A stretch of DNA of 64,000 nt from Hyphomicrobiales bacterium (lineage in GTDB: Bacteria; Pseudomonadota; Alphaproteobacteria; Rhizobiales; Rhizobiaceae), in assembly GCA_021775415.1 (NCBI GenBank), contig JAJFHV010000013.1, positions 186,001 to 250,000 on the forward strand, given 5' to 3'. The notes under the pieces are model-generated. The model worked only from the letters and a program-made list of their open reading frames with translations, was not told where the DNA came from and did not search any database. Each line of letters starts with the position of its first letter. Positions within the stretch are counted from its first letter, which is position 1. Shown here one piece after another: positions 31 to 60,024 of this stretch. The translations under genes and the position numbers were made by a program.

Positions 31-107
31 TGGCGCACCCGACAGGATTCGAACCTGTGACCTCTGCCTTCGGAGGGCAGCACTCTATCCAGCTGAGCTA
101 CGGGTGC
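31..107 (-). tRNA. tRNA-Arg (anticodon CCG)
   Basis: Read on the minus strand this is a 77-nt cloverleaf. The acceptor stem GCACCCG pairs with CGGGTGC, the T-loop is GGTTCGAATCC, and the anticodon stem CTGCC/GGCAG encloses the loop CTCCGAA, giving anticodon CCG, which reads the arginine codon CGG. The discriminator G and the terminal CCA are encoded. It stands alone next to the window edge and shows no sign of an integrated element. Confidence 0.97.
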
Positions 108-585: not shown

Positions 586-3495
586 CTAGTGTGCTTCGTC
601 CCAGTTTTGCGCCGCCCTTGCATCCACTTTCAATGGTACCGAAAGGGAAAGGGCTGGATGTGGCGCGTCTTCCATAATTTTGGAAACAACCGGAATGGTC
701 TTTTCAACTTCTGCGTCTGCGACTTCAAAAATCAGTTCATCATGCACCTGCAGCAGCATTTGGGCACCCAAATTTTCGGTGACAAGCGCTTCCTCCATCC
801 GCACCATCGCCCGGCGAATGATGTCTGCGGCAGAACCTTGAATCGGTGCATTGATTGCAGCGCGCTCGTTGAATGCCCGCATATGCGGATTTGAGGTTTT
901 GATGTCCGGATAATGCGCCCGGCGGCCAAAGATAGTTTCCACATAGCCATTCTCGCGGGCAAACGCCTTGGTTTGATCCATATAATCGCGAATGCCGGGG
1001 AAGCGTTCGAAATATTTCTTGATGTAATCCGATGCCTCGGATCGGCCAATGCCAAGCTGGTTGGCCAAGCCAAAAGCGGAAATGCCGTAGATAATACCAA
1101 AATTGATTGCTTTTGCGCGACGACGAACCATCGGGTCCATGCCCTCAATGGGAGTATCAAACATTTCCGAAGCGGTCATCGCATGAATATCAAGCCCGTC
1201 AGCAAACGCCTGTTTTAACTGCCCAATATCGGCGATATGTGCCAGCACTCTCAACTCAATCTGTGAATAGTCGGCTGATAAAAGTTTTGAACCCTTGCCT
1301 GCCACAAAAGCAGTACGGATACGGCGACCCTCCTCGGTCCGCACCGGTATGTTTTGCAAATTCGGGTCAGAGGATGAAAGCCTGCCGGTGGATGTTGATG
1401 CCATTGCATAAGAGGTGTGTACGCGACCGGTATCCTGATTGATGAAATCCGGCAGGGCATCCGTATAGGTGGACTTGAGTTTTGTGAGTTGCCGCCAGAA
1501 CACGATTTTTCTCGGTAGCTCATGTCCTTCAGCGGCCAGATCTTCCAGTATCTGCGCTGATGTTGAATGCTGCCCGGTTGCGGTTTTCTTGGCACCCGGC
1601 AAGCCAAGTTTGCCAAACAGAATTTCACCAAGTTGTTTGGGTGAACCAATGTTGAAGCGCTCGCCGGCAAGTTCATAAATTTCTGCTTCCAGGCTCGCGG
1701 CGGCCTGTGCCAGTTCTCCAGAAAGCCGCGAAAGAATTTGCCTGTCTACTGTAATGCCGCGCTGTTCCATTCGCGCCAGCACTTCAATCAGCGGTCGCTC
1801 CAGCCGTTCATAGACCGTGATCATTCCCTCCGCGACCAGTCGAGGCTTCAACACTTGCCACAAACGAAACGTTACATCCGCGTCCTCTGCTGCATAGGCG
1901 GTGGCTTTTTCTATTTCAACGTGATCGAAAGTGATCGAGGATCGACCGCTACCGGTCAGTTCCTTGTAGGAAATACAGGTATGTCCAAGCCAGCGTTTGG
2001 ATAGTTCATCCATGCCATGATTGCCAGCACCTGCATCAAGCACATATGACATCAGCATGGTGTCATCGAGACCCTGCGCGCTAATGCCGTGCTGTTCAAA
2101 CACCAGCCAGTCATATTTCATGTTCTGGCCGATTTTCAGGATGGATGAATCTTCCAGCAACGGCTTTAGTATTTCAAGCGCCCGGGTTGTTTCAATCTGG
2201 TTTTCAGCCAATCCCCCGCCCAAAAGGTCATCGATACCGGTCTTGTGGGCAAGCGGGATGTAGCAGGCATTTCCTGCTTCGGTTGCCAGAGAAATGCCAA
2301 CCAGTTCAGCAGTCATTGGATCAAGCGACGTGGTTTCCGTGTCCACCGCAACAACGCCCGCTGCAACGGCCCGCTCGACCCATTGTTGAAGAGCGATTTC
2401 GTCCCTTACGCAGTCATATTTGTCTGTGGCAATTTTGTCTGCAAACGCTATCCCTGCTCGGCGGCTTGAAAGATCGGCAGGCGTGGTGCCGGGACCGTCC
2501 GAGCTGTTTTTGAGTTCTGAACTCTCGGAGGCATCAAGGTCCGGGCCGCGTGTCGACACGAACTCTGGAAGCGTAACCTTTGCCGGTTCAATTTGCGACG
2601 CATCCGTTTCCGTTACCTCCGCCACTTTGCGGGTGATCGAGGTAAATTCCATAGCCTTCAAAAACCCGACAAGCTTTGGGCCATCCGTCGGTTCAAGTAG
2701 CAACTCATCGAGACTTTGCTCGAGCGGCACCTGATCATCCAGAGTGACGAGTTTCTTCGATACCCTCGCAAGATCAGCAAATTCAATCAGGTTCTCGCGG
2801 CGCTTGTTCTGCTTGATCTCGGAAGCCCGCTCCAGAAGTGTTTCAAGGTTGCCGTATTCTTCCAGCAATTGTGCAGCCGTCTTTGGGCCAATGCCCGGCA
2901 CACCCGGAACATTATCGGTTGAGTCTCCGGCAAGTGCCTGTAGATCAATCATTTTCTCCGGCTTTACGCCGAATTTTTCTATCACCTCATCTGTACCAAC
3001 CCGGCGGTCCTTCATTGTGTCATACATGATGACCTGAGGACCAATGAGCTGCATCAAATCCTTGTCGGAAGAGATAATGGTGGCATCGCCCCCGGCCTCG
3101 CGGGCAAGCCGCGCATAAGTGGCAATCAGATCGTCTGCCTCATACCCCTTGGCTTCGATGCAGGGAACGTTAAAGGACCGGGTCGCCTCACGGATCAGAC
3201 TGAATTGTGGGCGCAAGTCTTCCGGTGGCGCTTCGCGGTTTGCCTTGTATTCCGGGTAAATTTCATTGCGGAAAGTTTTTGAGGAGTAGTCGAAGATAAC
3301 CGCGAAATGGGTCGGTACCACGCCAACAGAGGTATCACGCGCCTCCTGCAGTAATTTCCATAACATGTTGCAGAAACCCGACACCGCCCCAACCGGCAAT
3401 CCGTCAGACTTGCGGGTAAGTGGCGGAAGTGCATGATAGGCACGAAAGATGTATGCCGATCCGTCGACCAGAAACAGGTGATCGCCTGCTTTCAT
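586..3495 (-). CDS. polA: DNA polymerase I
   Basis: Family A DNA polymerase of 969 residues, used in Okazaki fragment maturation and repair synthesis. Three domains are visible: an N-terminal 5' nuclease (about 1-300, with SSDKDLMQL and DSTDNVPGVPGIGPKTA), a proofreading 3'-5' exonuclease beginning near residue 380 with the intact acidic motif DTETTSLDP, and a C-terminal polymerase with motif A (DYSQIELRVLAH), motif B (RRAKAINFGIIYG) and motif C (QVHDELIFE). Length is usual for alphaproteobacteria, and all three activities look intact. An SD-like GGAG precedes the ATG. It is transcribed divergently from the isomerase gene at 3620. Confidence 0.97.
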   Translation of the reverse strand: MKAGDHLFLVDGSAYIFRAYHALPPLTRKSDGLPVGAVSGFCNMLWKLLQEARDTSVGVVPTHFAVIFDYSSKTFRNEIYPEYKANREAPPEDLRPQFSLIREATRSFNVPCIEAKGYEADDLIATYARLAREAGGDATIISSDKDLMQLIGPQVIMYDTMKDRRVGTDEVIEKFGVKPEKMIDLQALAGDSTDNVPGVPGIGPKTAAQLLEEYGNLETLLERASEIKQNKRRENLIEFADLARVSKKLVTLDDQVPLEQSLDELLLEPTDGPKLVGFLKAMEFTSITRKVAEVTETDASQIEPAKVTLPEFVSTRGPDLDASESSELKNSSDGPGTTPADLSSRRAGIAFADKIATDKYDCVRDEIALQQWVERAVAAGVVAVDTETTSLDPMTAELVGISLATEAGNACYIPLAHKTGIDDLLGGGLAENQIETTRALEILKPLLEDSSILKIGQNMKYDWLVFEQHGISAQGLDDTMLMSYVLDAGAGNHGMDELSKRWLGHTCISYKELTGSGRSSITFDHVEIEKATAYAAEDADVTFRLWQVLKPRLVAEGMITVYERLERPLIEVLARMEQRGITVDRQILSRLSGELAQAAASLEAEIYELAGERFNIGSPKQLGEILFGKLGLPGAKKTATGQHSTSAQILEDLAAEGHELPRKIVFWRQLTKLKSTYTDALPDFINQDTGRVHTSYAMASTSTGRLSSSDPNLQNIPVRTEEGRRIRTAFVAGKGSKLLSADYSQIELRVLAHIADIGQLKQAFADGLDIHAMTASEMFDTPIEGMDPMVRRRAKAINFGIIYGISAFGLANQLGIGRSEASDYIKKYFERFPGIRDYMDQTKAFARENGYVETIFGRRAHYPDIKTSNPHMRAFNERAAINAPIQGSAADIIRRAMVRMEEALVTENLGAQMLLQVHDELIFEVADAEVEKTIPVVSKIMEDAPHPALSLSVPLKVDARAAQNWDEAH

Positions 3496-52115: not shown

Positions 52116-53645
52116 TTAGGCGGCGACGGCAAACCGTTCTGTGGCAGTGCGGTAGGCGATTGCCTCTGCAAGATGGATGCGACCCACAAGTTGTGAACCG
52201 TCCAAATCCGCAATGGTGCGGGCAACCTTCAGGATCCGGTGATAAGCCCGTGCAGAAAACTTCATGTTTTCCGCTGCATCGCGCAACAATGCTTCTCCAC
52301 CAGCATCGGGCTTGGCAATGATTTCTGCAAGGGATGCGGGGGCGGTTGCATTGGTATAACAATCTGCCCCAAGTTCCCCAAACCGGAGTTGTTGTAGCTC
52401 GCGGGCCTTTAGAACACGCTTGGCAACTTCCCTCGATGGTTCGCTTTTTGTGTGTCCAATCATGTCGCTGGCACTGACGGCTGGTACATCAACCCGCAAA
52501 TCAATCCGGTCAAGCAATGGGCCGGAAATACGAGCCTGATAATCACCCGCGCATCTTGGCCCACGTCGACAGCTATGTCCGGGTTCTCCAGCCATGCCAC
52601 AGCGACAGGGATTCATCGCGGCCACCAACTGGATGCGGGAAGGATAGGTGATCCGGTGATTTGCCCGTGCAATGGTGGTTTCGCCTGCCTCAAGCGGTTG
52701 ACGAAGTGAATCGAGCACTTGCGGTGTAAACTCGGGGAACTCATCCAAAAACAACACACCATTATGGGCAAGTGATACCTCACCCGGTCGTGCCCGGACC
52801 CCACCGCCAACCATCGCAGCCATCGAGGCAGAGTGATGGGGAGCCCGGAAGGGGCGCCGGCTGGTGAGTTTCCCGCCATTCAGTTCACCGGCAATTGAAG
52901 CAATCATCGAGATTTCAAGCAATTCACGCGGAGACAGTGGTGGCAAAATTCCAGGTAGGCGCGTTGCAAGCATGGATTTACCTGAGCCCGGAGGGCCAGC
53001 CATCAATATATTATGCCCGCCTGCTGCAGCAATTTCGAGTGCCCGTTTTGCGGTTTCCTGGCCCATGATATCGGCAAGATCAGGCAGCGTGTCTTCGGAT
53101 TGGCGAATAGCGGCGGCTGGCCGCGAAAGCACCTGGGTGCCACGAAAATGATTGGCGAGCGACACCAGGCTTTGCGGAGCCAGAATATCCATATCGCGAT
53201 CTGCCCATGCAGCTTCCGCACCACAACTCTCGGGGCAAATCAGCCCTTTGGACTGTGAATTTGCTCCAATAGCAGCAGGAAGTGCTCCTGCAACCGGTGC
53301 CAGATTGCCATCCAGTGACAATTCACCAATCACCACATATCCATCCAGCGCATCTGCCGGAATGGCACCAAGCGCCGTCATCATGGCAAGTGCAATGGGA
53401 AGATCATAGTGGCTACCCTCCTTGGGAAGGTCGGCTGGTGCCAGATTGACGGTAACCCGCTTGGGCGGCATTGAAAGGCCGGATGCGTGAAGTGCTGCCT
53501 GCACCCGCTCACGGCTTTCCGCCACCGCCTTGTCCGGCAAACCGACAATCGACATGTTGACTTTGCCCGGTGCGATCATCACCTGCACATCGACCGGAAC
53601 AGCCTCGATACCTTGAAAGGCAACGGTGTGCACTCTTGAAACCAT
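52116..53645 (-). CDS. comM: ComM/YifB Mg-chelatase-like AAA+ ATPase
   Basis: A 509-residue protein with an N-terminal Lon-protease-like domain (VDVQVMIAPGKVNMSIVGLPDKAVAESRERV), a Mg-chelatase-type AAA+ core (Walker A AGPPGSGKSMLATRLPGILPP, Walker B VLFLDEFPEF) and a zinc-ligand insert (CRCGMAGEPGHSC). ComM is a hexameric helicase that promotes branch migration in natural transformation. The ATG at 53645 gives the family N-terminus VSRVHTVAFQG. A mobile element is inserted 49 bp upstream of this start, so the native promoter may be altered. Confidence 0.93.
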   Translation of the reverse strand: MVSRVHTVAFQGIEAVPVDVQVMIAPGKVNMSIVGLPDKAVAESRERVQAALHASGLSMPPKRVTVNLAPADLPKEGSHYDLPIALAMMTALGAIPADALDGYVVIGELSLDGNLAPVAGALPAAIGANSQSKGLICPESCGAEAAWADRDMDILAPQSLVSLANHFRGTQVLSRPAAAIRQSEDTLPDLADIMGQETAKRALEIAAAGGHNILMAGPPGSGKSMLATRLPGILPPLSPRELLEISMIASIAGELNGGKLTSRRPFRAPHHSASMAAMVGGGVRARPGEVSLAHNGVLFLDEFPEFTPQVLDSLRQPLEAGETTIARANHRITYPSRIQLVAAMNPCRCGMAGEPGHSCRRGPRCAGDYQARISGPLLDRIDLRVDVPAVSASDMIGHTKSEPSREVAKRVLKARELQQLRFGELGADCYTNATAPASLAEIIAKPDAGGEALLRDAAENMKFSARAYHRILKVARTIADLDGSQLVGRIHLAEAIAYRTATERFAVAA

Positions 53646-53686
53646 GACGATTAACCCTCCCACATTACAACCGTAGCATCAGGTAA

Positions 53687-53694
53687 TCACTCAA
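53687..53694. repeat. left copy of the 8-bp target-site duplication
   Basis: TCACTCAA, identical to 57102-57109 on the other side of the element. Eight base pairs is the duplication length reported for IS1595-family transposition. Confidence 0.9.
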
Positions 53695-53720
53695 GGCGTT
53701 ATTATCTTTTACAAACCCAA
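53695..53720 (+). repeat. left terminal inverted repeat
   Basis: A 26-bp repeat starting GGCGTTATTAT and ending ACAAACCCAA. It matches the reverse complement of 57076-57101 at 23 positions; the three differences are at positions 12, 13 and 16. Unlike the right copy it has TTTTACA where the right copy has TTGACA. Confidence 0.92.
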
Positions 53721-53742
53721 AGGAATCTACGATGGATAAGGC

Positions 53743-54279
53743 ATGGGATTTCTCAATCATGTATCAAAGGAATGGACCGTGCTGAAAGGTGCGCCAATTG
53801 CTTTTGTTGTTTTGGTCGTCTTTAGTTTGTGCACTGGATTTTTTGGTGGAACAGAATTTAAATCACAGGAGGTCAAAGCAATACAAGCTAGGCTGGACCT
53901 CAGGAATGATGAGCTGGACGATTACAAATCCAAACTAGAAGAGCGCTTGGACGATGTTGAAAAAAAATTGTCTGAAGTTCAGGTATCAAAAATAAAATCA
54001 GCGCTTGAGGGTAAATCCTCGTCTGTGGATATTTATTGGAACAATAGTTCAAAGTCAGCAATCGGTTATGCCGCCGAAATGTCGAAGGCGTTCGAAGAAA
54101 GCGGTTGGGATGTAATTGGCAAGCACTCAGCCACATTGCCTATCGGCAGGGCAGTTATCAGAACCGATAATACTCAAAACTCAGAAACAATTGGACGCGC
54201 CCTCGATGATGCTGGTGTGAAATATAATATTGGTGGCATTGCAACGGGTGACGGGTCAACAGACTTCATTCTGGAATAG
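53743..54279 (+). CDS. passenger protein: membrane anchor, coiled coil and unknown C-terminal domain
   Basis: An unrecognised 178-residue protein. One transmembrane helix (about 17-36) is followed by a charged coiled coil (about 42-85, ARLDLRNDELDDYKSKLEE onward) and a soluble alpha/beta C-terminal domain (about 93-178, with VDIYWNNSSKSAIGYAAEM). It would sit in the inner membrane with the C-terminus probably outside. The start is suspect: AAAGGA at 53720 is well spaced only for an ATG at 53732, which is out of frame. Reading from 53732 with one extra T in the run 53750-53752 would give MDKAWDFLNHVSKEW, in frame with the rest, so a one-base frameshift is likely. Confidence 0.6.
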   Translation: MGFLNHVSKEWTVLKGAPIAFVVLVVFSLCTGFFGGTEFKSQEVKAIQARLDLRNDELDDYKSKLEERLDDVEKKLSEVQVSKIKSALEGKSSSVDIYWNNSSKSAIGYAAEMSKAFEESGWDVIGKHSATLPIGRAVIRTDNTQNSETIGRALDDAGVKYNIGGIATGDGSTDFILE

Positions 54280-54323
54280 GTACCCACTTACTTGCAATGT
54301 AAGCGGCTTCACTATTGCCGATC

Positions 54324-54437
54324 TTATTTGTATTTTCTAGCAAGAAAAAATGCAGCAATTAGAAAAAGTACCGCAAGACCTATTTGGCCGAACAATGTCT
54401 CTGTAATGGCGGTGATTCCATAGCTTAAGGAAACCAT
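54324..54437 (-). CDS. 37-residue single-helix membrane peptide
   Basis: A small open frame that begins with an ATG directly after the stop of the preceding gene (TAAATG). The peptide is MVSLSYGITA... with a hydrophobic helix of about 20 residues (GLAVLFLIAAFFLA) and a basic end RKYK. Translational coupling and a membrane-spanning, positively ended helix make it credible, although a frame of this length can arise by chance. It might be a membrane-active peptide or a small regulator of the neighbouring membrane protein. No family is recognised. Confidence 0.45.
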   Translation of the reverse strand: MVSLSYGITAITETLFGQIGLAVLFLIAAFFLARKYK

Positions 54438-54707
54438 TTAGCCACCCCTGCCACCTCTGCCCCTATGGCCACCAACTCTGCCAACTTTTACTATTGGCGA
54501 TTTCACCGGTGTATTTGTCACGAAACTGCTCTCTACCTTTGGTGACTTGGCAATCTTGCGTAGCTTTTTATCAAACACGGTTTCGTCATTGTCCGTATCT
54601 GCCTCTTTTGCGGCATCCTCGAACTTCTGTTTTTGAGTGCGGGTGTCTTTTGTCATAGACCCAACATACATCAAATCCGCTAAGAACTCATTATCATTCA
54701 CGATCAT
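54438..54707 (-). CDS. small passenger protein with Gly/Arg-rich tail
   Basis: An unrecognised 89-residue protein. The first 55 residues are charged and helical (DNEFLADLMYVGSMTKDTR, then KFEDAAKEADTDNDE); the tail is basic and ends in a glycine/arginine repeat (GGHRGRGGRGG) of the kind that can bind nucleic acid. The ATG at 54707 overlaps the end of the upstream gene by 14 bases; ATG at 54656 is an alternative. It is the middle gene of a three-gene minus-strand unit in the element. Confidence 0.65.
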   Translation of the reverse strand: MIVNDNEFLADLMYVGSMTKDTRTQKQKFEDAAKEADTDNDETVFDKKLRKIAKSPKVESSFVTNTPVKSPIVKVGRVGGHRGRGGRGG

Positions 54708-55536
54708 CTTCGTCAGATTCAGCAAGAATTTCTTTATCCAATTCCAATTTTGCAATGAGGCGGTCGATTTCTTTAGCGCCGATCTTACCATTTACAATCA
54801 GTCGAAATCCCGCATCTTTAGAGAGCAATCCTGTTGTCAGCTCGCGTTCGCCCATCTGAATATCTCCTTTTGTGTCCGCAGGAGGTGTCTTGTTTCCTGT
54901 ACCCGAACGATCTTGAATTTTGCTCAATTCGCTACGGGTTTTTTCAGAAATATCTTCCTCTTCATCCGCATCCTTGTCTTCGTTATCAGGGGGTAGAGTA
55001 CCAGAATCTTTGATTCCTGCATAGTCTATTGTTTGCCTAAAGATCGAAATTAGGTCATCCGCAGCTTGGTCACTGAACAAAGCTTTCCCAGATTCAGCCC
55101 TATCTAAAATCAGGTAATTTTTTAATATAACTTCGGAGACATTTTGGCTTGTTCCAAATTTCTCAATCAACTCCGCAAACACAGTTGGGGAAGTTGCGGC
55201 GCTTTGGATGGCAGCCTTTCGTTTTTCGGAATCAGGATCAGCATCGCGAATGATGCGCAAAGCCTTATCCGTCAATATTACCTTGCGAGACGCGCCTGAG
55301 CCTTCGTCAGTTGCTAAACCATACTGCAAAAGAGCGGCTGCAGTAGCCCAAAGGCCGCTGCTCTTGGCACCGTAACCCCACGCCTCACCAAGAACACTTC
55401 CACCAGCGGGGTGATGCATAGCCGTACCATAAAGCTGCTTAGAGCGTTCTATCGCTTTGGCCAAGCCTATAGAGGGGTATGGCGGGCTGCGATAGCGAGG
55501 TTTATTATTGGGTTCCGTCTGCTCTACATCTGCCAT
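54694..55536 (-). CDS. passenger protein with winged-helix-like N-terminus and acidic linker
   Basis: An unrecognised 280-residue protein. Residues 15-130 (RYRSPPYPSIGLAKAIERSK, an Ala/Leu-rich helix with LQYGLAT, then VILTDKALRIIRDA and AELIEKFG) look like the helix-wing layout of DUF5343-type winged-helix proteins; this is resemblance only. A strongly acidic linker (DNEDKDADEEEDISEK) separates a C-terminal domain (about 230-280, FRLIVNGKIGAKEIDRLIAKLELDKEIL). The start has a near-perfect AAGGAGG eight bases upstream. It heads the minus-strand unit and has its own promoter upstream. Confidence 0.8.
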   Translation of the reverse strand: MADVEQTEPNNKPRYRSPPYPSIGLAKAIERSKQLYGTAMHHPAGGSVLGEAWGYGAKSSGLWATAAALLQYGLATDEGSGASRKVILTDKALRIIRDADPDSEKRKAAIQSAATSPTVFAELIEKFGTSQNVSEVILKNYLILDRAESGKALFSDQAADDLISIFRQTIDYAGIKDSGTLPPDNEDKDADEEEDISEKTRSELSKIQDRSGTGNKTPPADTKGDIQMGERELTTGLLSKDAGFRLIVNGKIGAKEIDRLIAKLELDKEILAESDEDDRE

Positions 55537-55571
55537 TGGGTAAGCCTCCTTCGTTTTGAACTACCACACGT

Positions 55572-55599
55572 GTTATACACGCATTTCCAAAAAACGCAA
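55572..55599 (-). promoter_or_regulatory. predicted sigma-70 promoter of the winged-helix gene
   Basis: On the minus strand, TTGCGT (55594-55599) and TATAAC (55572-55577) are separated by 16 bp, ending about 35 bp before the start codon. The promoter lies back-to-back with the plus-strand RNA promoter at 55632, with 32 bp between them. Confidence 0.5.
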
Positions 55600-55631
55600 G
55601 GTATAGCTTACCTTCCTACCTTTTTTATGTC

Positions 55632-55660
55632 TTGACTCCATTTCTCAGTGATTCTATAAT
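55632..55660 (+). promoter_or_regulatory. consensus sigma-70 promoter of the candidate RNA
   Basis: TTGACT (55632-55637) and a perfect TATAAT (55655-55660) with the optimal 17-bp spacer. It is the strongest-looking promoter in the window. Transcription should begin near 55667. Confidence 0.8.
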
Positions 55661-55666
55661 GCGTGA

Positions 55667-55996
55667 AAACCTGGAGATCAACTATGCAGAGAAGATACTA
55701 GCTCCCCCGTTTGGCCATTGGCGGTCGGGAGAAAGACGAAAGCCGAGACTGCGCAAACAGACTCGGCTCTCTAAATGGTCAAAGTCACGTCGGATGAAAC
55801 CGCGTTCTTCAACTATAACACCTGTAGAATCGCACAAAGTTTCATCCGGCTCAACCCCTCTTGTGAAGAAAGGGTTAGCCAATGGTATGGATTAGTTCGT
55901 ATCTACGGAGACGCTTTGGTAGGATAGAGCTAGTGCAAGCGCACTGGCGTTCTTTGCCAGCATAAGTGACTAGCGGCTTTAGCCGCTTTCATTTTT
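55667..55996 (+). ncRNA. candidate structured non-coding RNA of about 330 nt
   Basis: No convincing coding frame fits, yet the segment has a consensus promoter, an intrinsic terminator and dense pairing. Long-range helices nest: 55697-55704 with 55927-55934 (ACTAGCTC/GAGCTAGT, 8 bp) encloses 55715-55722 with 55878-55885 (CCATTGGC/GCCAATGG, 8 bp), which encloses three hairpins: 55741-55747/55762-55768 (AGCCGAG/CTCGGCT), 55791-55800/55839-55848 (CGGATGAAAC/GTTTCATCCG, 10 bp) and 55853-55857/55872-55876. Two more hairpins lie at 55932-55945 and 55944-55960. I do not recognise it as tmRNA, RNase P, SRP, 6S, HEARO or omega RNA. Boundaries are inferred. Confidence 0.65.
55972..55996 (+). terminator. 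intrinsic terminator of the candidate RNA
   Basis: AGCGGCT (55972-55978) pairs with AGCCGCT (55981-55987) across a very short loop, followed by TTCATTTTT. It ends the transcript started at about 55667. Confidence 0.8.
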
Positions 55997-56011
55997 CCGA
56001 TCAACCAACTT

Positions 56012-56044
56012 GCCGGGGAGAACAATCTTCCCGGCCTTTTATTT
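56012..56044 (+). terminator. second intrinsic terminator
   Basis: A 9-bp stem 56012-56020 / 56027-56035 (GCCGGGGAG with CTTCCCGGC, one G-U) with a 6-nt loop is followed by CTTTTATTT. It backs up the first terminator and shields the transposase gene, which runs in the opposite direction, from plus-strand transcription. Confidence 0.75.
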
Positions 56045-56084
56045 GTTGAATGGTAATTTCCATTGGTAAGGTTTCCTGCGGAAC

Positions 56085-57035
56085 TTAAGCCTGTACTCCG
56101 TCAGTTCTCCGATATGTCAAACGCTTGCCCATTGCGCCGATTAATGCGCGGGTAGCACGCTCACTATCATCACAACCAGTTTTGATTCGATTGGAATATC
56201 GGAAATCAAACTCAGCCAGATAGCGGTGCAGATGGTGTTCGGCACAGAGCTGATAGATACCCTTCATGCCGCGTTTGAAAATGCTGTAGTAGCCTTCCAC
56301 GGTGTTTGTGTGGATTTCACCACGGACATATTCCTCTTTCGAATGGTTCACCGAACGATGCTTATGAACCAGTTTGCCAGCGTTTCGATACTGCGATGCT
56401 TCATCGGTCATCATCGTAGCCTCTAGAGAAAGGTTTTCACATACGATTGGCATTACCTGTGCAATGCTGGTGCTTTCCACATGGAAACTACGAGCGCGTC
56501 CACCACGTTCAACCATTGTCAAAACGACATTCTTGTGAGCAACTCCCGGACCCTTGGGAACACCCTTGAGATTGCCATAGAAAGTTTCATCAACCTCCAC
56601 CGGCTGATCTGGACCACCCATTTCTGAAAAGTCATTAGTCTGCATTGCATGACGAATACGGTGCGAAAGAAACCATGCCGACTTAACGGTGATTTCCAGA
56701 ACTCGCGCCAGTTGATTGCTTGAAATGCCCTTCTTGCTGGAACACATCAAGTGGATTGCCTGAAGCCATTTATGCAATGGCAATTTGCTTTCTTCAAAGA
56801 TGGTTCCAATGCGCACAGTGAACTGTTTGCGGCAATGTCCACACTTGTACAATCCATGCCGTTCAATGCCTTCAGGATGCTTCTTTGAGGGCTTGGAGCG
56901 CACACCTTTCAGGGCATAGGCTTTATCCAGTCCACCACAGTGTGGACAGGCCGGACCATCGGGCCACAAGAGGTCTTCTACATGAGTAAAGGCAGAAGAC
57001 TCATCGTAGAAATATGGGCGGTTCATTACAGACAT
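56085..57035 (-). CDS. IS1595-family transposase
   Basis: A 316-residue transposase of the IS1595 (ISXO2-like) family. The N-terminal zinc ribbon has CPHC and CGHC pairs (about 31-34 and 71-74). A helical linker (WLQAIHLMCSSKKGISSNQLARVLEI) leads to the DDE catalytic core: VEVDETFYGN (first Asp), TMMTDEASQYRN (second Asp) and HTNTVEGYYSIFKRGMKGIYQ (Glu block), ending HLHRYLAEFDFRYSNR. Length and all motifs are intact, so the enzyme may be active. AGGA lies 7 bases before the ATG at 57035. The promoter is in and just inside the right terminal repeat. Confidence 0.95.
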   Translation of the reverse strand: MSVMNRPYFYDESSAFTHVEDLLWPDGPACPHCGGLDKAYALKGVRSKPSKKHPEGIERHGLYKCGHCRKQFTVRIGTIFEESKLPLHKWLQAIHLMCSSKKGISSNQLARVLEITVKSAWFLSHRIRHAMQTNDFSEMGGPDQPVEVDETFYGNLKGVPKGPGVAHKNVVLTMVERGGRARSFHVESTSIAQVMPIVCENLSLEATMMTDEASQYRNAGKLVHKHRSVNHSKEEYVRGEIHTNTVEGYYSIFKRGMKGIYQLCAEHHLHRYLAEFDFRYSNRIKTGCDDSERATRALIGAMGKRLTYRRTDGVQA

Positions 57036-57053
57036 GACGTTTCCTAACTTGTT

Positions 57054-57088
57054 GATTCCAATATAGGAATCTAAGTTGGGTTTGTCAA
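57054..57088 (-). promoter_or_regulatory. transposase promoter with operator-like palindrome
   Basis: On the minus strand TTGACA (57083-57088) and TATATT (57060-57065) are spaced by 17 bp. The -35 box is inside the right terminal repeat. A perfect inverted repeat GATTCC/GGAATC (57054-57059 and 57066-57071) is centred on the -10 box, a layout suited to repression by a dimeric protein or by the transposase. Confidence 0.7.
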
Positions 57089-57101
57089 GTATAATAACGC
57101 C
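57076..57101 (-). repeat. right terminal inverted repeat
   Basis: A 26-bp repeat, the inverted partner of 53695-53720 (23/26). It ends AACGCC at 57101 and is followed directly by the duplicated target TCACTCAA. Confidence 0.92.
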
Positions 57102-57109
57102 TCACTCAA
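57102..57109. repeat. right copy of the 8-bp target-site duplication
   Basis: TCACTCAA, identical to 53687-53694. Joining the flanks through one copy restores a continuous comM-cyclase intergenic sequence. Confidence 0.9.
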
Positions 57110-57226
57110 TCAAGAACAAAATAGGAACATCGCCTGATTACCGATATCATCCAGAATTGATGGGCAGTTGATCGCTCGATTGGTATAGATAGCGAACAAA
57201 CCAATATTTGTGATGGAGCCGCGCAA

Positions 57227-58585
57227 TTGGGCTTTCTTGACTACATCAGGGTAAATATCCTCAGTTCACATCATATGGGAGGCCTGCCCGAAAGCGTTCG
57301 CGAAACCCTGCGTGCCCGTGAGCGGGCAAATGAAGTGCTGGTTCGAGTCATTCAGGTGATGATCCTTTTACTGTTTGCAACGCTCTATTCCCTTGCTGCC
57401 AAAACCGGTGCGACAACCAAGTTCCAGCCGGTGCCGTTTGTGCTGGGTGCCTATCTGGTATTGAGCATTATCGGCCTCATCTGGTCGATTAGAAGTGAGT
57501 TGCCGGATTGGTCGGTGTATTGTTCAATCCTGTTTGATTTCAGTCTGCTCTATGCATTAATGATCAGTTTTCATTACCAGTATCAGCAACCGGCATCGTT
57601 TATTCTCAAGGCACCTACTCTGCTCTACGTATTCATCTTCATTGCCTTGCGGGCCTTGAGGCTTGAATGGAAATTTGTTGCCGCCGCAGGCCTGACGGCT
57701 GCTGCGGGGTGGATGGCTGTGGTGATTTATGTGGTCAACATTGATCCTGAACACACCATGATCACCCGTTCCTATGTGCAGTATCTGACGTCCAACTCAA
57801 TATTGATCGGTGCGGAGGTCGACAAGATCATTTCGATCCTTGCCGTCACCGCAATTCTGGCGCTGGTGGTCAACAGTTCCAGCAATTTACTGGTAACAGC
57901 TGTTAGTGAACAGCTTGCAGCGCGCAGCTTTTCCAGGTTCTTTGACAAGCGTATTGCGCAAGGTATTCGCTCCAGCGGAGGCACGCTTGAAGCCGGGCAG
58001 GGAGAGCGGCGCACTACCGCCATCGTCAACATCGATATTCGCGGGTTTTCCAAAATTGCCGCGGACCGCGAACCCTCGGAAGTGATGCAAATTCTTTCTG
58101 CCTATCAGGGCCGGGTGGTTCCCATTCTTCAAGCTCATGGTGCCATCATCGACAAGTTTATGGGCGATGGTATCATGGCAACCTTCGGAATTGATGATCC
58201 TGATTCCACGCATTCGCGCCCGGCAATCGAGGCGGCAGAGGCTGTTTTGCTGGATTGCCGAAAGTGGCGCAATGAAGAAGCCGTGCTCGCCGCGTCCGGT
58301 GCGATCCATATCGGCATCGGCATTGCTACCGGTACGGTATCCTTTGGTGCGGTTGGCAAGGATGATCGGCTTGAGATGACTGTAATCGGCGCACCGGTGA
58401 ACACTTCTGCCAAGCTCGAAAAACACAACAAGGTGCTTGGTACGGATTGTATTGTCCTGCGGGAGACCTGGGATGAAGCGGTCGCACAAGGATATCAGGG
58501 CAGTTTGAAATCAAAGTTTCTTGAAACCGAGATTGAAGGCATTTCACAGCCGAAACAAATCGCGATTTTAAAGGTTTCCGATTAA
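57227..58585 (+). CDS. class III adenylate/guanylate cyclase, membrane type (first of two)
   Basis: A 452-residue protein with six predicted transmembrane helices (about 40-230) and a C-terminal class III cyclase domain (about 260-450). Metal-binding Asp residues are in NIDIRGFSKIA and DKFMGDGIMATFG; the latter also carries the base-contacting Lys. In MTVIGAPVNTSAKLEKHNK the Asn of the transition-state pair is present, but the Arg four residues later is Lys, and the usual Asp before the V-N is Ala. Activity is therefore uncertain. The start is TTG at 57227 with GGAG eight bases upstream. It is 125 bp from the mobile element's right end. Confidence 0.87.
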   Translation: MGFLDYIRVNILSSHHMGGLPESVRETLRARERANEVLVRVIQVMILLLFATLYSLAAKTGATTKFQPVPFVLGAYLVLSIIGLIWSIRSELPDWSVYCSILFDFSLLYALMISFHYQYQQPASFILKAPTLLYVFIFIALRALRLEWKFVAAAGLTAAAGWMAVVIYVVNIDPEHTMITRSYVQYLTSNSILIGAEVDKIISILAVTAILALVVNSSSNLLVTAVSEQLAARSFSRFFDKRIAQGIRSSGGTLEAGQGERRTTAIVNIDIRGFSKIAADREPSEVMQILSAYQGRVVPILQAHGAIIDKFMGDGIMATFGIDDPDSTHSRPAIEAAEAVLLDCRKWRNEEAVLAASGAIHIGIGIATGTVSFGAVGKDDRLEMTVIGAPVNTSAKLEKHNKVLGTDCIVLRETWDEAVAQGYQGSLKSKFLETEIEGISQPKQIAILKVSD

Positions 58586-58725
58586 TCGGCTTGAAAATTT
58601 CTGCAGTGCGGGGCTTGAGCGGATGGAAAGTTTTTTGAAAGAGCGATAAGACTATGGGAGAAGTTCCCGAGAGAATTGGGAACAAGGCATAGGACTGCCG
58701 TTTTGATATTAAATCTCTAAAACCC

Positions 58726-60024
58726 ATGTCGGATCAGCTCGCCAGTTCGATTTTTAAAAATGCAGGCATTGATGAGAATGCATCGCGTAGTTTGCCTACG
58801 CGATGGCTCGATTGGGCCATGCGGATTGGCATCAGCGGCTATGACCGGGAAACCAGGCGCCGGCTCTCAATTGTGAACATGGCCGGGTATTTGTCGGCCC
58901 TTTCTTCATTGTCTTTCGCCATTAATTTTTCGATGTATGATTTCATGGCCCTGAAATGGGTCGTGGCGGTCAACATCCTTTCGGCGATCATCACAACCAC
59001 GGCACCGTTCTGGCATCGATACAATTCAATCGCCAGTGCATCAGTGCTGGCAACAACCGTCGCGATCACATTGTTCTTTTTCATCTCTGAATTGGGACGT
59101 GATTCAGGAATCCAGCTCAACTACATCGGCTCGGTGGCGATTGCCTTTGTAATCTTTGGACTTGGCCATCTGCGCATAATTGCGCTTGTAACCCTGGTTT
59201 GTATCGTCGGGCATCTGTCGAGTTTCTTCCTGTTCCAGACCGGCCGGGTTCAATCGGCAATCGATGATGGTTTCATGGCACAAATTTATACATTGTCCGC
59301 CACATCCATCATGATCGTATTGGCCGTCGTCGTCTGGTATGCGTTCAAGATTGCAGCCGATGCAGACGCCCGCTCCGAGCGCCTGCTTAAGAACGTTCTG
59401 CCAGTTACAATCGCTGAAAGGCTTCAGGATCAGCCCGATCAGCCAATCGCCAACAGTTTTGATGAGGCAACCGTGATGTTTGCAGACATCGTCGGCTTCA
59501 CAAAATTGTCCAAACGTCTTGGTGCAGAAGAGATGGTGTTTCTTCTAAACGAGATATTTACGGAGTTTGACCGGGTCGGCACCGAGTTGAATACGGAAAA
59601 AATCAAGACCATCGGCGATGCCTACATGGCGGTGAGTGGGGTGCCCGAACCGGTAGAAGACCATGCGGAAAAAGTGGTTCAACTGGCACTTGGTCTTCAA
59701 AAGGCAATTGAAGGAAAATCGGAAACCTTGAAAATCAAGCTGAACATGCGCATTGGGATTGCGACCGGACCGATTACCGCCGGCGTGATTGGCAAGGCCA
59801 AATTTGCCTATGATGTATGGTCCCCTACAGTGAACCTGGCATCCCGGTTGGAGTCTTATGGAGCCGCCGGACGCATCCACGTTTCACAGGCAACCTATCA
59901 GGCCCTGAAACGCAAATTCAAATTCGAAAAAGCGCCATCACAAAATTTGAAAGGCATAGGTCGGGTGCGCAGCTGGTATCTTGCTGGTGAGAACCTAAAC
60001 ACCAGTCGATCCAAAACCGCCTGA
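58726..60024 (+). CDS. class III adenylate cyclase, membrane type (second of two)
   Basis: A 432-residue protein with about six transmembrane helices (about 48-215) and a cyclase domain (about 235-420). All key residues are visible: metal Asp in [12 protein letters not shown] and in [11 protein letters not shown], the adenine-contacting Lys in [11 protein letters not shown] and Asp in YDVWSPTVN, and Asn plus Arg in VNLASRLE. It should make cAMP. It is 140 bp downstream of the first cyclase and shares its layout, though the two differ clearly in sequence. The 3' end overlaps the convergent dut gene by 30 bp. Confidence 0.9.

Follow-up and report, generated by a model that had tools for sequence, protein, structure and literature searches.

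A structured RNA with a rare-codon mini-ORF and a divergent, predicted winged-helix protein recur together as transposon cargo

The 64,000-nucleotide stretch analysed here (the window; positions 186,001 to 250,000 of contig JAJFHV010000013.1 from a Hyphomicrobiales bacterium) contains an intact, cargo-carrying transposon of the IS1595 family, 3,407 bp long (window 53695–57101). The cargo is not arbitrary: a protein encoded by its third open reading frame (ORF3) and a structured RNA encoded divergently from it recur together at other loci. RNAs of the same plan lie beside many ORF3 homologues and point away from ORF3, and the family plan is a Shine–Dalgarno sequence (SD), an AUG, in-frame rare arginine codons (AGA or AGG, together AGR) and then, usually 6–7 nt on, a covarying pseudoknot. 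The start of this RNA looks built for ribosome stalling, and we tentatively propose that the pair forms a persistence module, in which a ribosome-stalling, tRNA-sequestering RNA would be held off by ORF3.

An intact IS1595-family transposon

The element is bounded by terminal inverted repeats (TIRs), given by a repeat finder as a pair of 27 nt at 89%, and by an 8-bp target-site duplication (TSD), TCACTCAA. Its transposase (window 56085–57035, minus strand) is encoded in a single reading frame without interruption and matches Pfam DDE_Tnp_IS1595 (E=5.8e-31) and Zn_ribbon_IS1595, as well as NCBIfam transpos_IS1595 (E=1.2e-54); the element accordingly combines a Zn-ribbon and DDE transposase with TIRs and an 8-bp target duplication, both of which mark the family. 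An earlier, sequence-only reading of the window had described an intact IS1595-family element with extra cargo, with which transposase matches, TIRs and TSD all agree: its count of 23 identities over 26-bp TIRs was obtained again on recomputation, its perfect duplication is present on both sides (8/8), and the DDE transposase that it called intact is confirmed by the frame and by both family libraries.

By-eye naming of the neighbours puts a comM/YifB-like gene on one side of the insertion and an adenylate-cyclase-like gene on the other. Two neighbouring adenylate-cyclase-like genes, named by eye from the translation, adjoin it (57227–60024, plus strand). A related genome without the insert, which the same reading had named as a check, exists: in the same-genus genome G686 both flanking genes are adjacent, about 160 bp apart, the element is absent, and the joined flanks align, imperfectly, across the insertion point with small gaps only. 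A query of the joined flanks matched 59 of 61 genomes of the family, the own genome among them; the matches listed for the other genomes, except for one of 50 bp, fall in the flank on the comM side. The own genome holds one copy of the element, and 36 of 72,556 plasmid records match it, none over 80% of its length, the 20 plasmid matches listed covering the transposase part only. The absence of a second copy, which that reading had named as a refuting outcome, applies to near-identical copies only (own genome and plasmids); homologous elements built on the same plan, with different TSDs, do exist.

The ORF3–RNA pair in other transposons

From the left, the cargo comprises ORF1, ORF2, ORF3 (minus strand) and the RNA gene (plus strand), the last lying between ORF3 and the transposase and divergent from ORF3. 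A second IS1595 element (locus L008, 4951–7653; TSD CTCTTGAA) has the same order, ORF3 (minus), RNA (plus) and transposase (minus), with identities of 35% and 38% in the parts that align. Perfect 8-bp TSDs flank five complete ORF3–RNA elements: these two, L025 (GAAAATTC), L029 (CCCTGTTT) and L030 (TGGAGCGG). A transposase of IS1 or IS1595 type stands beside the RNA at 11 of the first 13 loci and at 11 of 15 overall, of which six are independent matches because five queries came from five of the 11 loci. The transposase is IS1-type, a label taken from protein appearance and not from family libraries, at L009, L025, L026, L028, L029, L030 and L105, and IS1595-type in the window, L008, L048 and L050. 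At L010 an integrase-like gene is nearby (by eye), L027 is on a 5.7-kb contig, and L148 (cut by the contig end) and L149 show no transposase beside the RNA.

Among 25 loci from the ORF3 searches, with RNA status set by the analyst and the fragments L011 (a transposase remnant with no RNA match) and L012 left out, a transposase stands beside ORF3 at 9 of 13 loci with the RNA versus 1 of 12 without it (Fisher p=0.0036). Adding both fragments gives 9 of 13 versus 2 of 14 (p=0.0063), removing the three query-supplying loci 6 of 10 versus 1 of 12 (p=0.020), and both changes together p=0.032. The occurrence of the pair in other kinds of jumping genes suggests that it helps the element to persist, and of the two roles guessed at by the sequence-only reading it favours a selfish-element accessory over a defence or regulatory module. 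The mini-ORF, the pseudoknot, the microprotein and the connection to IS1-type elements go beyond what that reading had noticed.

The position of the RNA relative to the transposase varies. The two are convergent in the window and L008; the RNA is upstream on the same strand in L009, L025, L029, L048, L050 and L105, and beyond ORF3 in L026, L028 and L030. An Xre-like gene (by eye) stands between transposase and RNA in L048 and L050. Locus L147 (5497–9265) combines 60-nt TIRs (82%) and an IS1595 transposase with an ORF3 interrupted by a single internal TAA; its end repeat is the 6-bp AGTTCC, not a clean 8-bp TSD. By eye the locus also contains a mini-ORF-like stretch, which covariance model R2 (below) does not support, and it was counted as RNA-negative. 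At L011 (6924–7324) the C terminus of an IS1-type transposase abuts that of ORF3, perhaps a decayed element of the same kind.

A family of covarying pseudoknot RNAs

The RNA region of the window (55640–56050, plus strand) folds with z=−5.0, a value that 0 of 100 shuffles reach, as expected from the sequence-only reading, which had placed a structured RNA in the cargo. Its strand is not given by folding alone, because the minus strand also folds (z=−4.5), and was assigned from the SD–AUG, a promoter-like site with 11 of 12 consensus positions and terminator-like hairpins; the scan, with 3 promoter-like sites against 5.1 in shuffles and 7 terminator-like sites against 3.9, is weak by itself. Stems A, B and C (arms hand-picked), the SD–AUG with AGR and the divergence from ORF3 are all present. 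Promoter-like TTGAC sites with 17-nt spacing and 23–24 nt from the −10 element to the AUG occur in 5 of 13 RNAs (window, L025, L026, L030 and L149), a count without a chance estimate.

Two covariance models were built, R1 from four RNAs and R2 from ten, the latter without those of the window, L008 and L010. R1 recovered RNAs outside its building set at L009, L025, L029, L048, L050 and L105. R2, run on 14 sources (200.6 kb, window included), returned four matches up to E=10, the first three of which, L010 (E=0.069), L008 (0.23) and the window (0.29, 14.4 bits), overlap sites pre-marked by eye; the window match begins at its AUG, model position 1. Run on seven fresh ORF3 loci, R2 added two RNAs next to ORF3: L148 (E=4.6e-20) and L149 (E=1.8e-7). 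The family as counted here has 15 RNAs, three of which (window, L008 and L010) are marginal by covariance model, and the window RNA is treated, with reservation over its R2 match, as a probable diverged member.

The structure is carried by covariation in the relatives. An alignment of 10 RNAs has 90.7% of its 281 cells paired and two-sided changes at 20 of its 30 pairs, and 0 of 500 shuffles reach any of five measures. Covarying pairs make up 8 of 11 in stem A, 11 of 11 in stem C and 1 of 8 in stem B, the alignment having been fitted to stems A and C in a way that favours both. In stem B 81.4% of cells pair, and a shuffle test of this stem alone reaches significance for three RNAs (window, L008 and L027) out of nine and not for the other six. 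Near-100% pairing of hand-picked stem arms is circular, and its informative part is the drop observed on partner swap.

An R1 scan of 385 whole genomes found five and missed the G421 and G410 loci, both of which R1 finds locally, so that genome counts by R1 are lower bounds. A pattern scan over 84,980 species yielded 70 stretches, of which R1 backs five, four of these on contigs already collected; of eight viral stretches it backs none. The RNA has no matching Rfam family: at gathering scores the window and 11 relatives gave tRNAs only, plus, in L029 and apart from the RNA, a single rpsB match, and at E up to 5 window 53600–57200 gave three sub-threshold matches only.

Rare arginine codons in front of the pseudoknot

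A purine-rich SD lies at the usual distance from the AUG in 11 of the first 13 RNAs (by eye), and AGA or AGG stands in frame within codons 2–5 in 12 of the 13, in tandem in eight. The AUG-to-AGR distances are of three kinds (0, 3 and 6 nt), and the last AGR of the block lies 6–7 nt from stem A in 10 of 12 RNAs, 6 nt in the window. Both out-of-sample RNAs have AGG-AGG in frame: the L148 mini-ORF reads AUG-UUC-AGG-AGG, 6 nt from the stem, with another AGA abutting the stem, and that of L149 reads AUG-AUU-CUU-AGG-AGG, 3 nt from the stem. A gap of 6–7 nt to a pseudoknot suits ribosome stalling or frameshifting. In the host, AGA is used 4.2, AGG 5.3 and AGR 9.5 times per 1000 codons (31 mechanically called window ORFs, 16,108 codons), and one gene each for tRNA-Arg(TCT) and tRNA-Arg(CCT) was seen among the 30 tRNA loci inspected of 38.

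Variable modules downstream of the pseudoknot

What follows the pseudoknot was sorted by eye and with ARAGORN. A tRNA or tRNA-like domain follows in 7 of 15 RNAs, and a phrog_21154-type microprotein follows the folded region in three of 15 (window, L008 and L010). The RNA ends after the pseudoknot in five of 15 (L026, L029, L105, L148 and L149), loci at which ARAGORN finds no tRNA and diverged tRNA-like units were sought by eye only; because these five seem to have neither part, both are read as optional. The tRNAs called by ARAGORN have a four-base anticodon, CUAC, in L009, Thr-CGU in L025 and the stop anticodon UUA in L028 and L030, and all four may be stop-codon-reading or mis-decoding tRNAs on transposons. 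The 3′ domains of L027, L048 and L050 have a G3.U70 acceptor pair followed by A, with a T-arm by eye, all of which are features of transfer-messenger RNA (tmRNA); the units resemble its alanine-accepting end.

A search of 162 class genomes that started from the microprotein (phrog_21154) found three loci, that of the window and two others; the microprotein also lives alone, as the two others have no ORF3 match in the roughly 3 kb inspected. At L150 and L151 an ORF3 homologue is divergent from a microprotein-like stretch seen by eye; neither has an R2 match, and L150 looks AT-rich.

The passenger proteins

ORF3 has no accepted match in Pfam, NCBIfam, PHROGs, PADLOC or PDB sequences, and none to PADLOC defence families at E 0.5. 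In its AlphaFold2 model, computed from a 5-sequence alignment (mean predicted local distance difference test, pLDDT, 67.8; predicted template-modelling score 0.56), residues 21–170 reach pLDDT 83–94, and the predicted N-terminal domain begins helix-helix-helix-strand-strand. Fold searches gave 0 of 694 PDB matches and 0 of 285 viral matches below E 0.001; the top ranks mix winged helix-turn-helix (wHTH) proteins of MarR type with O-methyltransferases. Weak profile matches fall on wHTH parts of Csa3 chains (E 0.034–0.048), and LexA and CARF-associated HTH are each matched weakly by one member of 12. The weak MarR-type fold and the weak wHTH profile matches make a winged helix likely, and ORF3 is a probable DNA-binding protein.

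A search of 297 genomes of the order found ORF3 in five, and profile searches found it in 12 of 385 class, 7 of 297 order and 9 of 398 phylum genomes, in overlapping sets and with the own genome counted throughout. ORF3 alone gave no match in the first scan of genome contigs, searches of phage records with two query proteins did not find it, and the plasmids gave one weak match, from Tistrella. In the viral locus L052, 30 residues of the L010 protein were matched.

For ORF1 the family matches are weak and coiled-coil-like only; those in PADLOC fall on the coiled-coil-like part (best E=6.7e-5, residues 19–90 of 178) and support no defence assignment. ORF2, a doubtful passenger, has no family match in Pfam or NCBIfam. 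The positions of all features are collected in Table 1. A tRNA-Arg(CCG) gene (window 31–107) lies at the left edge of the window.

Table 1. Features of the transposon, its RNA and related loci (window positions unless a locus is named)
Feature	Position	Strand	Basis or remark
Left target-site duplication TCACTCAA	53687–53694		same as 57102–57109, 8/8
Left TIR	53695–53720	+	23/26 identical to right end
ORF1, 178 aa, hydrophobic stretch then coiled-coil-like region (by eye)	53743–54279	+	passenger
ORF2, 72 aa (117-aa longer start possible), doubtful passenger	54438–54656	-	open reading frame
ORF3, 280 aa, winged-helix-like N-terminal domain, disordered linker, small C-terminal beta-alpha domain (predicted)	54694–55536	-	AlphaFold2, weak matches
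Promoter-like TTGACT-17-TATAAT	55632–55660	+	11/12 consensus positions
Mini-ORF AUG-CAG-AGA-AGA-UAC-UAG behind CTGGAG	55684–55701	+	AUG on R2 model position 1
Pseudoknot stem A, arms 55702–55706 / 55727–55731, strand B5′ in loop	55702–55731	+	family alignment
Pseudoknot stem B, 55710–55719 with 55774–55783, 10 pairs	55710–55783	+	P(shuffle)=0.0046
Hairpin C, within pseudoknot	55742–55767	+	fold
Hairpin D, third stem, window-type RNAs	55791–55848	+	fold; L008 and L010 by eye
Micro-ORF, 27 aa, MVWISSYLRRRFGRIELVQAHWRSLPA	55882–55965	+	phrog_21154 E=2.3e-7; homologues in same place in L008, L010
Two terminator-like hairpins, RNA end	55972–56035	+	terminator scan
IS1595-family transposase, 316 aa	56085–57035	-	Pfam and NCBIfam matches
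Right TIR	57076–57101	-	23/26 identical to left end
Right target-site duplication TCACTCAA	57102–57109		same as 53687–53694, 8/8
tRNA directly behind pseudoknot	L028:5257–5343, L030:5617–5714, L009:858–932, L025:6698–6771		ARAGORN
tRNA-like unit with G3.U70	L027:3310–3377, L048:2601–2669, L050:4872–4942		by hand, no ARAGORN call
Phage arrangement	L053 (phage Oslo) 1763–2581; L055 (phage phi-8) ~1761–2580		families tested for Oslo; phi-8 tblastn only

A proposed persistence module and its alternatives

The module that we tentatively favour would have two parts. One is the RNA gene, with a promoter, a short leader, an SD, an AUG and rare AGA/AGG codons a few nucleotides before an H-type pseudoknot: ribosomes would start efficiently, meet the rare arginine codons against the pseudoknot and stall or abort, so that, as with CreT RNAs, the scarce tRNA-Arg(UCU/CCU) would be tied up along with ribosomes. 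The other is ORF3, winged-helix-like and divergently transcribed, which would silence the RNA and would disappear together with the transposon. The transposon itself, the covariation of the RNA in relatives, the geometry of the mini-ORF and the repeated presence of the pair within transposons are observed, and from these we infer toxicity, tRNA sequestration, repression by ORF3 and addiction.

Several observations weigh against this proposal. The SD is weak in L048 and abuts the AUG in L008, which also lacks AGR near its AUG; the tally of AGR in 12 of 13 RNAs is restricted to in-frame codons, in a frame that is itself not an independent test, and the RNAs are related by descent, so that codon conservation does not amount to 13 independent events. 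The spacing from AGR to stem A is 3 nt in L029 and L149 and 9 nt in L010, and in 11 of 13 RNAs the mini-ORF runs for 19–35 codons and enters the pseudoknot, against 4–6 codons in CreT. No common operator was seen between ORF3 and the RNA, palindromes beating shuffles (p=0.03) in three of 13 only, and L048 and L105 have no ORF3 in the searches made, which indicates that protein partners vary. The RNAs of the window, L008 and L010 were not recovered by R1, their R2 E values are only 0.29, 0.23 and 0.069, and the R2 match starts 9 nt inside the chosen AUG in L008 and 6 nt outside it in L010. A CreT-like view also leaves the tRNA-like domain without explanation.

Close behind the persistence module comes a leader or attenuator, a possible but doubtful reading in which mini-ORF and pseudoknot would sense translation of the rare arginine codons or charged tRNA and control a downstream product. 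The effector would be this product: the basic microprotein (27 aa) for the window element, a tRNA for others. Such a reading would account for the conserved microprotein right behind the folded region in the window, L008 and L010, for the tRNA or tRNA-like domain close behind 7 of 15 RNAs, for the ORF3 and by-eye microprotein homologues of L150 and L151, which have no R2 match, and for lambdoid phages in which a microprotein of this family accompanies a different protein and a folded region. The downstream products are mutually unrelated, however, and the five RNAs that show neither product (by eye, and without a tRNA by ARAGORN) argue against a mere leader. That mini-ORF, pseudoknot and a chargeable tRNA-like domain act jointly on ribosomes in the manner of tmRNA, the window having lost or replaced the tRNA-like part, is improbable: the G3.U70 pair, the A and the by-eye T-arm of L027, L048 and L050 would fit, as would the UUA (stop) anticodons of L028 and L030 and the four-base anticodon of L009, but the RNAs start with SD–AUG, the domain is absent from 8 of 15 (window included), Rfam gave no tmRNA match in the window, L008–L010 or L025–L030, and ARAGORN made no tmRNA call in the loci tested.

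We consider it unlikely that the pair is plain cargo, with ORF3 a regulator of other genes and the RNA its small RNA, no help to the element and a transposase association due to hitchhiking. An integrase element beside the pair at L010 (by eye) and the lack of a detected IS1/IS1595 transposase at L027, L148 and L149 are what such cargo would look like, whereas the association of transposases with ORF3 loci that have the RNA (p=0.0036; strictest 0.032) and the sharing of the module by two transposase families oppose it. Control of transposition by the RNA or ORF3, through transposase dosage or target choice, has very little to recommend it, since the position and orientation of the RNA relative to the transposase vary among loci, even if related transposases are often alongside.

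Implications

Cargo on a transposon is nothing unusual; the combination of this RNA with ORF3, found with two types of transposase, appears to be undescribed, and searches of the open-licence PubMed Central (PMC) literature on tRNA-like or structured RNAs in insertion sequences and on tRNA-sequestering RNAs in transposons gave no report of such an RNA. If the persistence module is real, small transposons that are usually seen as little beyond a transposase carry an addiction system with a tRNA-sequestering RNA, and CreT-like toxins extend beyond CRISPR loci and gain a protein partner. The broader claim, a new mobile RNA class on IS1/IS1595-type transposons in which a stalling mini-ORF is linked to a conserved pseudoknot and, in 7 of 15, to a tRNA or tRNA-like domain (some with stop or four-base anticodons), and which would form with the winged-helix protein an RNA-toxin/protein-antitoxin addiction system, is more doubtful than either of the two leading readings. 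As a compact covarying structure, the RNA opens stalling at rare codons before a pseudoknot to direct test; why a selfish element should carry tRNAs with stop or four-base anticodons is a question posed by the tRNA-bearing forms.

Comparison with known systems

The window element shares with IS1595 insertion sequences the Zn-ribbon and DDE_Tnp_IS1595 transposase (ISXO2-like), the TIRs and the 8-bp TSD, and differs from them in its length of 3.4 kb, in carrying ORF1, ORF2, ORF3 and an RNA gene, and in the presence of the ORF3–RNA module in IS1-type elements too. Some relatives resemble tmRNA in combining an ORF and a pseudoknot with a tRNA-like domain that has G3.U70. The start of tmRNA differs from SD–AUG, the start used by the relatives, which also have a complete 3′ tRNA-like unit and no Rfam match; the window copy has no tRNA-like domain. 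In lambdoid phages, cI is followed by a gene for a phrog_2602-type protein, a region that folds (z=−3.1 in Oslo) and a microprotein gene of the phrog_21154 family. This arrangement resembles the module in its regulator-sized protein, folded region and microprotein family; it differs in that the phage genes lie on the same strand, R2 has no match there and the ORF3 profile does not match the phage protein.

The RNA invites comparison with CreT of CreTA, a type VIII system. The CreT report (PMC8501985) names as requirements a strong SD, efficient initiation, a pair of consecutive AGA codons and a stable stem-loop, and describes a second CreT with AUA-AUA in a six-codon ORF; a 2025 review (PMC12548467) assigns rare-tRNA-sequestering RNA toxins to type VIII and associates them mainly with prophages and rarely with genomic islands and insertion sequences or transposons. 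The window RNA has the same anatomy, with an SD, an AUG, a five-codon ORF whose two adjacent minor codons are a tandem AGA, and a stable structure downstream. It differs in having a pseudoknot instead of a stem-loop, one codon between AUG and AGA, a transposon as its carrier and a protein, ORF3, as its candidate antitoxin, no CRISPR or antisense search having been made; the longer ORFs (19–35 codons) in 11 of 13 relatives differ as well. We propose a possible relative of CreT in function and make no claim of common descent. Toxin–antitoxin passengers of Tn3-family transposons (PMC7157771) are likewise selfish modules within transposons; here the transposase belongs to another family, and an RNA would take the place of the toxin protein.

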